Below are positions 5,292 through 13,252 of a stretch of 22,932 nt of DNA, one piece after another (positions within the stretch are counted from its first letter, which is position 1; every line of letters starts with the position of its first letter). Both the position numbers and the translations under genes were made by a program. Where the stretch lies: IMG/VR virus record IMGVR_UViG_3300035698_007650, positions 1 through 22,932 of that record. One strand, 5' to 3'. The notes beneath the pieces were generated by a model that saw nothing but the letters and a program-made list of their open reading frames with translations, did no database searches and was not told the origin of the DNA. This DNA comes from a virus.

Positions 5292-6557
5292 ATGGGAACA
5301 TATCCTTATTACACAGAACCTACACATGATGAAGGTGATGTGTCAACACAAACAGCTACAAACTATGCTCGTGGTACCGATGTTTCGGTAGCAGAAGGCA
5401 GAATGATTGTAGAAGCTCAAGACAAGATTTTCTTGTTAGAACCTAACAAACATCCATTGGTTACTCTTTTGACTAACGTTGGTAAAGTTTATGACGGTAA
5501 AGCTTGGAAGGGCTCAAGCATGATGAAGCAATCAACTGGAAATCCAGAATTCAAATGGTTCGAAGATTTCTACGGTGGTCGTTACGCTAAGGTAAGCGGA
5601 ACTTACACTGCAGCTGCTTCTCAAACTCCAACAGTAACTGGAGCAGGAACTAAATCTGGAACAATTTTCACAATCGGTGATCTTGTAAAGAATGCTAGAA
5701 CTGGTGAAATCGCTAGGGTTTCAGCAGTTGCAGATACAACTATTACTCTTGGTACTAGAAGTGTCGGTTCAACCGCTGCTGCAGCTGGTGCTGATGGTGA
5801 TGGTCTATACATTGTTGGTAACTCTAATGAAGAGAATTCTGGCGCTAGAAATGCTAACGTTACAAGATCTTCATCTCAAAGTAATTACACTCAGATTTTT
5901 AAGACAACAATTGCTGTTTCTGGTACTGAGAAAGAAGCTAACCTATATGGTGGTGCTGATCTTCCTTACTTACGTGCTAAGAAAGGTACAGAACATGCAT
6001 TGGATATTGAAAGAGCTTTCTGGTGGGGTGAAAAGGGAAGTACTACTGGTAGCGTAATTGGGCAACCATTGAAAACTACTGGTGGTGTTCTAGAGTACAT
6101 TGAAGGAAATAACGCTTATGCACAAGATCAAGGTGGTGTTTTAACTGCTCCTGATTTTAATACTTTCCTAAGGGAAGGTTTCACATATGGTAATGACACT
6201 AAGACATTATTCTGTGGTGGTATCGTTCTACAAGCTATTAACGAATTCGCACGTGGTCAAATTCAAATGAGACCATTGGAGAAGAGTTATGGTATGTCAA
6301 TTAGTGAGTATGTAACTCCATTTGGTAAGATTAATCTAATCCATAATCCTCTATTCGTAGAAGACTATGCTGGTTATGCTTTCTTACTTGATATGGAATG
6401 TTTCAAATACATTAGTATGAATAACAGAGATACTAAGTTACAAACTAATGTACAGGGTAATGATGTTGATGGTGAGATCGATCAGTATATTTCTGAGGTA
6501 GGTCTAAAGAGAATTCAAGCTCCTAAATGTGCATTGCTTAAGGGCGTAGAAGCATAG
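5292..6557 (+). CDS. Major capsid protein (SU10/DUF5309-like, HK97 fold expected)
   Basis: This 421-residue protein forms the capsid shell. Its size, position after the scaffold-like gene and several stretches resemble the SU10-type (DUF5309) capsid family: EAQDKIFLLEPNKHPLVTLL near residue 42, ALDIERAFWWGEK near 236 followed by TTGGVLEYI, and a C-terminal FGKINLIHNPLF / YAFLLDMECFKYI region. Residues of about 100-195 are Thr/Ala/Gly-rich (TYTAAASQTPTVTGAG; RSVGSTAAAAGADGDG) and look like a beta-rich insertion. The 80-base gap before it has a weak 5-bp stem (AGGCA 5245-5249 with TGCCT 5260-5264). Codons such as GGT, GCT and AAC are commoner here than in the glycan cluster, as expected of a highly expressed gene. 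Confidence 0.8.
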   Translation: MGTYPYYTEPTHDEGDVSTQTATNYARGTDVSVAEGRMIVEAQDKIFLLEPNKHPLVTLLTNVGKVYDGKAWKGSSMMKQSTGNPEFKWFEDFYGGRYAKVSGTYTAAASQTPTVTGAGTKSGTIFTIGDLVKNARTGEIARVSAVADTTITLGTRSVGSTAAAAGADGDGLYIVGNSNEENSGARNANVTRSSSQSNYTQIFKTTIAVSGTEKEANLYGGADLPYLRAKKGTEHALDIERAFWWGEKGSTTGSVIGQPLKTTGGVLEYIEGNNAYAQDQGGVLTAPDFNTFLREGFTYGNDTKTLFCGGIVLQAINEFARGQIQMRPLEKSYGMSISEYVTPFGKINLIHNPLFVEDYAGYAFLLDMECFKYISMNNRDTKLQTNVQGNDVDGEIDQYISEVGLKRIQAPKCALLKGVEA

Positions 6558-6585
6558 ACACAAATTAGTTTAATATAGTCTTTAA

Positions 6586-6678
6586 TGGGGGAGCAGACTT
6601 TTAAAAAACTCCCCTAGTGGTGGCATGTCCATCACTCCGACAAGGGCACGGGTAATTGTCCTCCAGGATTAACCTGGA
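6586..6678 (+). ncRNA. Four-hairpin structured leader between capsid gene and next gene
   Basis: The 139-base gap after the capsid gene contains a 93-base segment with about 52% G+C in a strongly AT-rich genome. On the + transcript it folds into four adjacent hairpins: H1 6586-6593 with 6609-6616 (8 bp, one G-U); H2 6617-6623 with 6629-6635 (7 bp, one G-U, loop CATGT); H3 6639-6643 with 6656-6660 (5 bp, weak); H4 6662-6667 with 6673-6678 (TCCAGG/CCTGGA, loop ATTAA). H1 and H2 abut, and H3 and H4 are one base apart. Function is unknown: mRNA stabiliser, termination or processing element, or a leader controlling the gene at 6697. Confidence 0.5.
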
Positions 6679-6696
6679 AATATAAAATATAAACAT

Positions 6697-7425: not shown

Positions 7426-7433
7426 ATTTTTAT

Positions 7434-7458
7434 GGGGGTGGCTTTCGCTGCCCCCTTT
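7434..7458 (+). terminator. GC-rich hairpin after 6697 gene, terminator-like
   Basis: GGGGGTGGC (7434-7442) pairs with GCTGCCCCC (7447-7455), nine pairs including two G-U, around the tetraloop TTTC, followed by only TTT. The G-U pairs favour a + strand RNA hairpin. It may be a weak or partial terminator setting expression steps between virion genes, or an mRNA-stabilising element. Confidence 0.5.
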
Positions 7459-7465
7459 AGGGAAT

Positions 7466-8091: not shown

Positions 8092-8925
8092 ATGTCACAA
8101 TCGAAATTGGTGGATGAACAATATTCATTTCTCTATGACCCATACCTATATGGTTATGCTGACGGTGATTACTGGAAAGCTTCCACTGGAACACCAGAAG
8201 CACATAGTGGGAAAATTAGATTTAGGTCCGCTACTGCAAGTACACTTGACACGTATATGTTTGGAAATTTTAATTTTAAGTTTACTATTCCAACAGCTCC
8301 AGCTGGTGGTGATTCCCGTATTTGGGGATTATATGGTAGATCAAATCCAAATAGAAACGCTGCGTACTTCTTTATACAAGGATCCAGTTTCTATACAAGA
8401 ACATTTGGAAATAATAATGCAACTCCAGAACAAAATACAATAGCATGGGTTTCTGATTGGACCAACACTCCAACAGAATTTGAGATAAGGTGGAGAATTG
8501 ACAGTGTTGAATTTTGGGTAGGAAATGGAACAGATAAGGTTAGGGTTTCTAAACATCATGTAACAACTACTATTCCTAAACAGAAGCTAGTTCCAATTTA
8601 TATATCTAATAGCACTAGTGATCTCTTTAATTTATCATTTCTTGAGATTGCAAATGTTAGAAAGATGGCAACAGCAAATGTAAGTTGGTATTCATCTACT
8701 TCAACAAGTTCTACTTCTAGTTCTACTTCTAGTTCTACTTCAAGTTCTACTTCAAGTTCATCTAGTTCTACTTCTAGTTCTACTTCTAGTTCTACTTCAA
8801 GTTCTACTTCTAGTTCATCTAGTTCTACTTCAAGTTCTACTTCTAGTTCTACTTCAAGTTCTACTTCAAGTTCATCTAGTTCTACTTCAAGTTCTACTTC
8901 AAGTTCTACTTCATTGCTTGGTTAA
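8092..8925 (+). CDS. Lectin-like virion protein with long C-terminal Ser/Thr tail
   Basis: 277 residues. Residues 1-195 look like an all-beta concanavalin-A-like jelly roll: KIRFRSATASTLDTYMFGNF, FNFKFTIP, then RIWGLYGR, then TEFEIRWRIDSVEFWVG, a strand order common in LamG/GH16-like carbohydrate-binding folds. No catalytic Glu pair of the GH16 type is visible, so binding rather than cleavage is likelier. Residues 202-274 consist only of Ser and Thr in a regular array, and the protein ends LLG directly after it. The tail resembles the linkers of the fibre-like protein at 20238 but joins no further domain here. A role as fibre or surface appendage is inferred. Confidence 0.65.
   Translation: MSQSKLVDEQYSFLYDPYLYGYADGDYWKASTGTPEAHSGKIRFRSATASTLDTYMFGNFNFKFTIPTAPAGGDSRIWGLYGRSNPNRNAAYFFIQGSSFYTRTFGNNNATPEQNTIAWVSDWTNTPTEFEIRWRIDSVEFWVGNGTDKVRVSKHHVTTTIPKQKLVPIYISNSTSDLFNLSFLEIANVRKMATANVSWYSSTSTSSTSSSTSSSTSSSTSSSSSSTSSSTSSSTSSSTSSSSSSTSSSTSSSTSSSTSSSSSSTSSSTSSSTSLLG
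8713..8913 (+). repeat. 57-bp higher-order Ser/Thr repeat array
   Basis: Three full 57-base units (8713-8769, 8770-8826, 8827-8883) and a partial fourth (8884-8913). Each encodes three TSSS blocks plus one TSSSSSS block from 12-base subunits of ACT-TCW-AGT-TCT type. Differences between full units are confined to TCT versus TCA, all silent. Only ACT is used for Thr, whereas the linkers after 20238 also use ACA and AGC. Confidence 0.9.
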
Positions 8926-8938
8926 TAACTTAATATAT

Positions 8939-8955
8939 GGGGGGTTTATCCCCCC
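8939..8955 (+). terminator. Poly-G/poly-C hairpin after the lectin-like gene
   Basis: GGGGGG (8939-8944) pairs with CCCCCC (8950-8955) around the loop TTTAT, 13 bases after the stop codon. No T tract follows, so a standard intrinsic terminator is doubtful. It resembles the hairpins at 6586 and 7434 in starting with ATGGGG and standing just after a virion gene. Confidence 0.4.
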
Positions 8956-8984
8956 TAGTATTAATAAAATAATAATAAATTACT

Positions 8985-9176
8985 ATGACAAAAACAGACT
9001 TAGGAATCTATATTTTAACAGGATTGGCTATCATAGCCTCTGGAATACTGTTAGCATTAGATAAAGAACTATCTATTCTTATTCCAACTGTAACTGCCTT
9101 AATTGGTTTAATTGTTGGTAAAAAGAATGTTGTTATATCAGAAAAGGTTTCTGGTGTTCTTAAGAGAAAGAAATAA
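8985..9176 (+). CDS. Small two-helix membrane protein, holin-like
   Basis: 63 residues with two hydrophobic segments, about 7-25 (GIYILTGLAIIASGILLAL) and 31-46 (ILIPTVTALIGLIVG), separated by a short DKE turn, and a basic C-terminus (LKRKK). This hairpin topology and size fit class II holins, which form the hole letting endolysin cross the inner membrane. No endolysin is visible next to it, so holin is a suggestion rather than an identification; a small virion membrane protein is possible. It is the last gene before the non-coding gap and the carbohydrate operon. Confidence 0.5.
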   Translation: MTKTDLGIYILTGLAIIASGILLALDKELSILIPTVTALIGLIVGKKNVVISEKVSGVLKRKK

Positions 9177-9187
9177 AAAATTTAATA

Positions 9188-9275
9188 AATCGTGGGTAAT
9201 AGAATGAAAACTCTATAGATTATGCTTTTCCCCACGATTAGCATATATTTATGGGGTTTTCATTTTGTTACGATT
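9188..9275 (+). ncRNA. Long RNA hairpin with competing upstream arm: candidate RNA switch or structured leader
   Basis: 9196-9220 pairs with 9247-9271 and 9221-9225 with 9241-9245, giving 30 pairs (25 Watson-Crick, 5 G-U), no mismatch, and one bulged base (T9246). The 15-base loop is 9226-9240. Five G-U pairs keep the helix as + strand RNA but would be A-C mismatches on the other strand, which argues for an RNA function. The upstream arm AATCGTGGG (9188-9196) is also perfectly complementary over nine bases to CCCACGATT in the loop (9231-9239), and its first six bases to ACGATT at 9270-9275. The three-base gap makes the full hairpin and the loop pairing sterically incompatible together. It lies 21 bases before the first carbohydrate gene. 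It matches no RNA family I recognise. Confidence 0.6.
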
Positions 9276-9295
9276 AAGTTTAATATATATATAAT

Positions 9296-10738
9296 ATGAA
9301 TTTAGAAACAATAATAGATAAAGCAAAAGAGTTTGATTCTTATTTTATCACTGTCACAACAAGAGATGGTAGTAAAACTGAGAACGATCTTAAGCATTAT
9401 TACTTTAAAAGAAGATTTTCTCAAGACGATATAATACCATGTCTTGATGAGTCCGTCAGGTTACTTGGTATTTATCCAGATAAACCAGTTAATGTTGTAA
9501 AACCTAAGAAAATAACTGAAGATAAAGAACCATTAAGAATAGCTATTGTAAGTCATTTTAATTCAATGCCTGCGTCTTATAGTCCAGCTAGGGCTGTTAG
9601 AAATCAGATTAAAATGCTTAAATCACATGGTCACGATGTTACTATCTTTATTAGAGAAGATTCAAAGTTGACAGAAGAAGAACTAGGCTGCAATGTATTA
9701 AAGATAATGCCTAAGTTCAGGAGGGAAAAGATGGTTATAAACGAAGAAGCTAAGGATAAGCTTATAAGTATATTTAAAGAAGAGCTTGCTCCAAATTTTG
9801 ATATTGCTATTACTCACGATTTTTACATACAGGATACAGTTACATATTCAGAGGCGATTAGAGAATGTGGCATTAAAATGCCATGGTTACATTTCGCGAG
9901 AAGTGGCGTTGGACACGAGATGGATTTCTCTATGGACAACGCTAATTTTGTTTACTTAAATTATGCTGACATAGGAAAGTTTTCTAAAGCAATTAAAGTA
10001 AAACCAGAACAATGTAGAACTGTATTTAATGAGAAGGAACCATCTTTTATGTTAGATTGGAATCCAATTACAAAAATGATAGTTGATAAATTTGAACTAT
10101 GGGATAGAGATATTATACAGACATACCCAATATGTTCTACAAGAATGGACGCAAAGGGATTGAATTCAGTAATTAAAACATTTGTAGAGCTTAAGAGGTT
10201 AGGTAAGAAGGTTGCTCTTGTAGTGGCAAACTCAAATGGTAGGAGAAGGGCAGACGAGCTTAGGGCAAAACAACAATTTGCTAAAGACTTGGGATTAAAT
10301 GAAGATGAATTTATCTTTACAAGTTTATTGGCTGATGATACATACAAAATACAAAGTGAAGTTCCAAATAAGGTATGCGCAGAACTAATGCAGATGTCTA
10401 ATCTATTTGTGTTTCCAACAATAGCTGAGGTTGGACCAAACATTGTTTTAGAAGCATCTATGACTAAGAATCTAATAGTAATCAATAGTGACTTACCATT
10501 GATGTATGACTTTGTAGAAGAGGGTTCTTATTTAGAATATCCATTTACTAGTAATAGAAGATTACATTACAGTGGAAGAGACAATAAGTCTCTATCAGAG
10601 CTTGCAGAAAAGATTGTAGCTGAATTAGATAATAATAAGATTGATAAGCAGTTTAGGAGAGTATGGCGCGTTCATAACTCTGAATCTATATATAATAATA
10701 TGTTAAAACCCATCCTATATGAAAACAGCATACAGTAG
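9296..10738 (+). CDS. GT-B glycosyltransferase (GT4-like)
   Basis: A 480-residue enzyme expected to transfer a sugar from a nucleotide donor to a glycan or protein, with retention if it is truly GT4. Residues 1-75 are an extra N-terminal region of unknown role. The first Rossmann-like domain begins at 81 (RIAIVSHFNS...SPARAVRNQIKMLKSHGHDV), typical of GT4. The donor-binding domain begins around 275 (TRMDAKGLNSVIKTFVELKRLGKKVALVV), with the EX7E motif at Glu378 and Glu386 in EVGPNIVLEAS. No membrane segment, so cytoplasmic. It is the first gene of the carbohydrate operon, behind the structured leader; the next small gene overlaps its end by 20 bases. Confidence 0.85.
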   Translation: MNLETIIDKAKEFDSYFITVTTRDGSKTENDLKHYYFKRRFSQDDIIPCLDESVRLLGIYPDKPVNVVKPKKITEDKEPLRIAIVSHFNSMPASYSPARAVRNQIKMLKSHGHDVTIFIREDSKLTEEELGCNVLKIMPKFRREKMVINEEAKDKLISIFKEELAPNFDIAITHDFYIQDTVTYSEAIRECGIKMPWLHFARSGVGHEMDFSMDNANFVYLNYADIGKFSKAIKVKPEQCRTVFNEKEPSFMLDWNPITKMIVDKFELWDRDIIQTYPICSTRMDAKGLNSVIKTFVELKRLGKKVALVVANSNGRRRADELRAKQQFAKDLGLNEDEFIFTSLLADDTYKIQSEVPNKVCAELMQMSNLFVFPTIAEVGPNIVLEASMTKNLIVINSDLPLMYDFVEEGSYLEYPFTSNRRLHYSGRDNKSLSELAEKIVAELDNNKIDKQFRRVWRVHNSESIYNNMLKPILYENSIQ

Positions 10739-12430: not shown

Positions 12431-12496
12431 ATGACAAAAATTTGTACTAAATGCAAAGAAGAAAAGAATTTGTATTTTTTAAAAAGAAATAAACAT
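12431..12496 (+). other. 22-codon Cys-rich extension, possible zinc-finger remnant
   Basis: These codons are in frame with the dehydratase gene and read MTKICTKCKEEKNLYF and onward to KRNKH. The C-x-x-C-K-E-E-K pattern near an N-terminus is typical of the zinc knuckle that opens many phage HNH endonucleases and similar small proteins; the second Cys pair is missing. Both this ATG (12431) and that at 12497 have a suitable T-ATG leader. The Rossmann domain starts at the second one, so this stretch is probably a degraded remnant or a short leader peptide. Confidence 0.45.
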
Positions 12497-13252
12497 ATGA
12501 AATATTTAATAACAGGTGGAACTGGTTCATTGGGACAGGCGCTGGTTAAAATACTGTTAAATATAAACAGTACTGAAGAAATTATAGTTTATTCTAGGGA
12601 TGAATATAAGCAATCTGAAATGGCTAGAAAATTAAGGAATAACAAGGTTTCATATTGGCTTGGAGATATTAGAGATTTAGAAAGAATCAAGGAAGCGTGT
12701 GATGGAGTTGACGTTGTTATTCATACAGCAGCAATGAAAAGAATGGACACTATTTCTCGAAATGCTTCTGTTGTTGCTGACGTTAATATAAATGGTACTA
12801 ATAATGTAATGATAGCTGGAAAGAACTGTCAGAGGGTTGTATTTGTATCTTCTGATAAAGCATTTAAACCAGAGAATATTTATGGTGCCAGTAAAATGGT
12901 GGCAGAAGGAATAGTACTAGCAAGACCAAATGGTATTGTTTGGAGGTTTGGAAATTTTATAGGAAGTCGTGGCAGCGTATGGGAAATATTTGAAGAACAA
13001 AAAAAGAACGGTAAACCATTTACAATAACAGATCCAGATGCAACAAGATTCGTTATAGACCTAGAAGAGGTTTGTTGTTGTCTTTTGTCTGATACAACAA
13101 CTGGATTGCACTATCCAAGGGACCTAAAGTCAATGACAGTATTAGATATAGCTAGGTCAATAGACCCTTCAAATGATTTCGAGATTGTGGGACTAAGAGA
13201 GGGAGAAAAGCTTCACGAGGCTTTTGATGATAATTATTCAAGTAAAAAATAG
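12497..13252 (+). CDS. NAD(P)-dependent SDR, UDP-GlcNAc 4,6-dehydratase-like (PseB/FlaA1 type)
   Basis: 251 residues. Enzymes of this type remove water from UDP-GlcNAc to give 4-keto-6-deoxy sugars, the entry to pseudaminic acid, bacillosamine and related sugars. The dinucleotide loop GGTGSLG is at 7-13, GDIRD at 56-60, SSDKA at 118-122 and the YxxxK pair at Tyr129/Lys133 in NIYGASK. The segments RFGNFIGSRGSVWEIF, PFTITDPDATRFVIDLEE and the C-terminal LREGEKLHEAF follow the PseB/FlaA1/CapD pattern closely. It is shorter than typical PseB (about 330 residues) and lacks the membrane part of FlaA1/WbpM-type proteins. The start at 12497 leaves a normal N-terminus; an upstream in-frame start adds the Cys-rich extension described separately. 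Confidence 0.8.
   Translation: MKYLITGGTGSLGQALVKILLNINSTEEIIVYSRDEYKQSEMARKLRNNKVSYWLGDIRDLERIKEACDGVDVVIHTAAMKRMDTISRNASVVADVNINGTNNVMIAGKNCQRVVFVSSDKAFKPENIYGASKMVAEGIVLARPNGIVWRFGNFIGSRGSVWEIFEEQKKNGKPFTITDPDATRFVIDLEEVCCCLLSDTTTGLHYPRDLKSMTVLDIARSIDPSNDFEIVGLREGEKLHEAFDDNYSSKK

Follow-up and report, generated by a model that had tools for sequence, protein, structure and literature searches.

The DNA analysed here, referred to as the window, is the whole stretch of 22,932 nucleotides (1-22,932) of the IMG/VR virus record IMGVR_UViG_3300035698_007650. Its main genes all lie on the + strand and comprise terminase, portal, major capsid protein (MCP, 5292-6557) and several small structural genes, followed on the 3' side by a Ser/Thr-repeat protein (8092-8925) and a 63-aa membrane protein of holin-like size (8985-9176). 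Carbohydrate genes, including glycosyltransferases, start at 9296. The first of them, GT1 (9296-10738, + strand), has weak GT4-type matches and opens the downstream operon. The membrane protein gene, also on the + strand, is the last gene 5' of the element described here, and its homologues occupy the same position in two other phages (L001 and L048); the protein matched nothing in Pfam or PHROG, and a search with the protein alone found no relatives. MCP relatives were found in 34 uncultured loci, several of them on 86-101 kb contigs; those in isolated phages are remote (about 31% identity or below), and several are podovirus-like. The query DNA had no meaningful match to known phage DNA.

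Two observations concern the coding sequences of this region. A long Ser/Thr-rich low-complexity tail with SSTSSST repeats (window 8700-8922; L003:9140-9640, of different length) ends the gene located 5' of the membrane protein, near the glycosyltransferases, and is possibly a glycosylation target. Further downstream (12431-12500), the epimerase/dehydratase ORF opens with a CxxC-type stretch (MTKICTKCKEEKNLYFLKRNK) 5' of its second methionine. This stretch resembles the start of an HNH endonuclease and is possibly a remnant or the product of a wrong start.

The intergenic region between the membrane protein gene and GT1 contains a long hairpin. Its 5' arm (9196-9225, + strand) pairs with its 3' arm (9241-9271, + strand) through 25 Watson-Crick and 5 G-U pairs, with one bulge (U9246) and no mismatch, so the first-pass annotation was exact in describing a 30-position stem with a single bulge and five G-U pairs. 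Its folding energy on the + strand is -36.3 kcal/mol, and no other intergenic hairpin in the window is as stable. The minimum free energy of 9150-9300 was -40.3 kcal/mol, compared to -22.6 ± 3.5 kcal/mol for 200 dinucleotide shuffles (z -5.1, 0/200). GT1 starts 24 nt after the hairpin, and the same order holds in both homologues described below, in agreement with the earlier statement that the element sits directly before the first glycosyltransferase.

Relatives of the element were found by way of a GT1 search. Two homologues were recovered, both in other uncultured phages and in the same place, between the gene for the 63-aa membrane protein and the same glycosyltransferase. In L001 (which shares one contig with L003 and L033) GT1 is 76% identical and the element has 79% DNA identity. 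In L048, located on a 101-kb contig, GT1 is 68% identical and the element lies at the same place with a strongly changed sequence. In the three-sequence alignment 91% of the cells of the long stem are paired, compared to 45-55% when the partner strand is shifted by 1-3 columns, and six pairs have changes in both partners. Stem cells contain 15 G-U against 1 A-C combinations (10 to 1 when counted by site, p = 0.012), and the + strand folds at -36.3, -27.6 and -23.5 kcal/mol in the three homologues versus -15.9, -12.9 and -18.4 kcal/mol for the - strand. Because G-U exceeds A-C and the + strand folds more strongly in all three, selection acts on the + strand RNA, as had been proposed from the wobble pairs of the window.

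The second feature is a helix, P1, that would compete with this hairpin. Its 5' strand, AATCGTGGG (9188-9196, + strand), is an arm upstream of the hairpin, and its 3' strand, CCCACGATT (9231-9239, + strand), lies within the hairpin loop. The nine-base complementarity noted by the first-pass annotation is exact, base 9196 also taking part in the first pair of the long stem, and random sequences of the same composition are expected to contain a flank/loop complement of this length in about 0.2% of cases. Its cores, AATCGTG and CACGATT, are conserved in all three phages at 14/14 positions; between the window and L048, these 14 positions are identical whereas the remaining element is 61% identical. 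The two outer G-C pairs are absent on both sides in L048, and the spacing between the two sites varies (44-46 nt). Covariation in both helices had been named as the check to make in homologues. The long stem does covary; P1 is unchanged in the three sequences, so that it neither covaries nor breaks. P1 is thus conserved at the sequence level, with its pairing not demonstrated by covariation. A single base separates the 3' strands of P1 and the long stem, so on geometric grounds P1 and the top of the stem should be mutually exclusive. A second competition had been suggested from a six-base complement of the upstream arm (AATCGT) to 9270-9275. It is present in the window and lost in both homologues (ATGAAT and ACAACA), and is therefore probably incidental. 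Within P1, a possible small hairpin, P2 (ATAGA/TCTAT, 9199-9216, + strand), is weak; one of its pairs has a two-sided change in L001. Between the upstream gene's stop codon and P1 there are 9-11 nt in two phages (11 nt in the window) and about 21 nt in L048. Since this distance varies between phages, an effect of the terminating ribosome on P1 is possible but unconstrained.

Three further carriers of GT1, at 56-58% identity (L049, L014, and L030), are without the element. L014 and L049 have only short unstructured gaps before GT1, and in L030 a promoter that matches the sigma-70 consensus perfectly (TTGACA-17-TATAAT, L030:19016-19044) lies 5' of the gene. From their sequences, these other GT1 lineages appear to handle the boundary between structural and glycosyltransferase genes differently. 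Covariance models run over 17 whole contigs placed a single copy in each of the three phages, always between the same two genes, and found no second copies or further members, the weak matches having E values of 0.02-0.8. Because the other GT1 carriers lack it and the models find nothing convincing elsewhere, the element seems to belong to one GT1 lineage. Other MCP relatives had no homologue recognisable by sequence or by the three-part pattern. A search of viral contigs with the pattern AATCGTGGG-N-CCCACGATT gave 11 loci, of which only L003 was homologous and the others were unrelated, about as many as expected by chance; a more specific pattern returned only L003 and the contig of L048 from viral contigs, and five unrelated sequences from bacterial genomes.

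The 3' side of the hairpin resembles a terminator. A core hairpin (ACTCT...GGGGT, 9210-9257, + strand, -17.9 kcal/mol) ends in a G-run (9253-9256) and leads into the U-tract TTTTCATTTTGTT (9257-9269, + strand), whose counterparts in the homologues are TTTTCATTTTTTTA and TTTTATTTTG. This U-tract is a new observation, absent from the first-pass annotation. In all three phages a G-rich stem end (GGGG, GGAG, or GAAG) is followed directly by a TTTTCATTTTG-type U-tract, with tract scores (3.99, 4.27, and 4.45) that only the best 0.13% of window positions reach. When hairpins followed by U-tracts were ranked, the element was the top candidate in the window and on L033; on L048 it took second place, one remote hairpin scoring higher. 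Some features fit less well: a CA breaks up the U-tract, part of which lies within the lower stem; the terminator-like stem is rich in A-U pairs and in L048 contains internal loops that interrupt it; and a standard terminator scan with loops limited to 3-8 nt reported none. Judged by sequence, the element has the appearance of an intrinsic terminator, with a stable conserved stem-loop and a U-rich tract right after the G/C-rich stem end.

Growing transcripts were also folded stepwise, the values obtained being those of equilibrium. P1 is predicted to have a probability of about 1 from completion of its second strand until 16-18 nt further, and in each of the phages it is predicted to give way to the long hairpin at +17 to +22 nt, with the takeover finished by 18-22 nt; at this point the G-run is complete. 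P1 would then compete with the terminator during passage of the polymerase over the U-tract. Without the 5' strand of P1, the long hairpin is predicted to be favoured from +4 to +12 nt. The folding model thus predicts what is expected of an attenuator, namely an earlier-forming upstream pairing that excludes the terminator and delays the hairpin, in each of the three phages. For the full-length RNA at equilibrium the long hairpin is far more stable, and antitermination would therefore need kinetic trapping or assistance.

On balance, and with guarded confidence, we favour the reading of the element as a cis-acting + strand RNA that attenuates transcription where the late structural genes give way to the glycosyltransferase operon, and that probably sets the amount of sugar-gene transcript. 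P1 would form first on the emerging RNA and stay favoured until the G-run is done and the U-tract has begun, after which the long hairpin would win. If the hairpin formed while the polymerase was on the U-tract, transcription would stop before GT1; if P1 persisted, either kinetically or held by a ribosome, a protein or a ligand, the polymerase would read through. The outcome would be an output of sugar-modification genes that is below that of the capsid genes and may be conditional. The first-pass annotation had suggested a switch or attenuator. The covarying stem, the invariant arm and loop strands and the U-tract in all three phages support this, whereas the second of its two competitions, at 9270-9275, did not hold up. 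Glycosyltransferase islands are common in phages and their separation from highly expressed structural genes is rarely understood. At this boundary the element, which covaries, is strand-specific and has the features of a terminator, offers a short regulatory part that can be tested.

Other modes of control in cis fit less well. A metabolite riboswitch is not favoured because no conserved unpaired ligand-binding core is visible; among the three sequences, L048 shares little with the other two within P1 beyond A/T matches. Translational control through a masked start site is also less likely, given that the hairpin ends 24 nt (window) or about 11 nt (L048) before the ATG and that the 21 window genes examined, GT1 included, all lack an evident Shine-Dalgarno sequence.

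The main rival explanation, which we regard as possible though rather unlikely, is a processing or stability hairpin (an RNase III-type site or a degradation barrier) that would split the structural from the glycosyltransferase mRNA, the competing arm being secondary. A duplex of 25-30 bp suffices for RNase III, the element stands at a functional boundary of the operon, and hairpins without U-tracts, several of them 23-28 bp long, also occur elsewhere between the late genes in this phage family. The duplex length for RNase III (about 20 bp or more) is reached in the window and in L001, but in L048 the duplex runs uninterrupted for just 8-9 bp on either side of a mismatch. Processing would also leave unexplained the invariant P1 strands and the U-tract right after the G-run in all three phages.

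We entertain, as a speculative and on the whole doubtful extension, that the element represents an undescribed RNA family, a phage antitermination switch whose invariant seven-pair helix would be recognised by a phage or host factor and would gate read-through from the capsid genes to the glycosylation operon, as one of several dosage-setting RNA structures in the late operon. In another reading, the element would be a simple terminator or read-through attenuator with no switch, giving a fixed ratio of structural to glycosyltransferase mRNA, and AATCGTG/CACGATT would be a protein site on RNA or DNA. Invariance of P1 without covariation fits recognition by a protein, and the terminator features would be accounted for as well. 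We consider this improbable, however, as the P1 strands are exactly complementary and positioned so that their helix excludes the top of the hairpin, and the variable spacing of the two sites mildly disfavours a phased DNA operator.

It is very improbable that the element is a trans-acting or dimerising RNA freed from the intergenic region. The complementary flank and loop could pair between two molecules and a terminator would free a short 3' end, but a sigma-70 search found no promoter above chance level just upstream, and P1 is equally workable in cis. Dimerisation through the loop, which had been raised earlier, gained no support, the loop not being self-complementary. A DNA-level site for recombination, cruciform formation or operator binding is just as improbable: the inverted repeats AATCGTG...CACGATT are invariant, but the stem substitutions keep G-U and not A-C, which only a + strand RNA would reward, and the element is single-copy with no rearrangement seen.

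Classical attenuators (of the trp, pyr, and T-box type) combine two exclusive folds with a later hairpin and U-tract before the controlled gene. The element is predicted to share the exclusive folds, and it has the later hairpin with its U-tract and the position. It differs in that no leader peptide, tRNA-binding or known protein-binding motif was identified in it, in its very long and A-U-rich terminator stem, and in its competing helix, which joins the upstream flank to the terminator loop and not to a stem arm. Its assignment to the terminator/antiterminator attenuators is partly supported, and we lean only slightly toward it. EAR/epsC RNA is a processive antiterminator acting on distant terminators in polysaccharide operons. 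Like it, the element is proposed to govern transcription into polysaccharide genes; unlike it, the proposed terminator lies within the element, and the epsC family in Rfam gave no covariance-model match. In phage T7, RNase III hairpins between genes process polycistronic mRNA. The element likewise is a long intergenic hairpin in a phage polycistronic mRNA but has, in addition, a U-tract after the stem and an invariant competing strand.

The claim that the element matches no RNA family stands, since in the window no Rfam family scored at or above its gathering threshold, and the only models that appeared at E values up to 10, for miRNAs and sRNAs, were at chance level. The microRNA matches were look-alikes of long hairpins, far below gathering scores. 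Closest in setting are manA (RF01745) and wcaG (RF01761), phage-borne cis RNA candidates of T4-like cyanophages, of which wcaG RNAs are typically found 5' of genes related to exopolysaccharide; the epsC motif was described in the same work (Weinberg et al., 2010; PMC2864571). The likeness consists in being phage-borne cis RNA candidates. The element has one long stem and an invariant competing strand in place of a conserved multi-stem core, belongs to another phage lineage, and is not matched by the manA and wcaG covariance models (E up to 10 in the window and up to 1 in the homologues). Publications dealing with attenuators in phages, with RNase III hairpins or with antitermination did not yield a description of it.

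Other RNA structures accompany the late genes of this phage family. Right after the MCP gene (window 6558-6696), before the next gene, lies a conserved structured RNA that recurs in about 25 related contigs (e.g., L020:7780-7923, L040:7845-7981, and L047:11849-12013). One of its hairpins carries the conserved internal loop TGGGA...TAAAATCA; it also has a second hairpin and, shortly 5' of the next start codon, an H-type pseudoknot (CCCGAC-GGYCA-CGGGT-YAT-TGRCC). Among 27 distinct sequences 95% of the pseudoknot cells are paired and 43 cells have two-sided changes, a result that no shuffle equals. It has no match in Rfam, is probably an undescribed phage RNA family, and is better supported than the hairpin before GT1. 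Together, the element and this pseudoknot suggest that this uncultured phage family relies on RNA structure to set its late gene output.

Further late-operon intergenic hairpins at 7427-7463 and 8930-8964 (GGGGGTGGC...GCTGCCCCC and GGGGGGTTTATCCCCCC) have equivalents in many related contigs, variable in sequence and kept in position; no U-tract was seen by eye after these other hairpins. Relatives with late-operon hairpins of 23-28 bp include L016:8623, L017:2359, L018:12166, and L020:8642. In L047, a group I intron (Rfam Intron_gpI, L047:9764-9992) lies within the major capsid gene, and interrupted capsid genes were also found in L036, L037, L039, L041, and L044.
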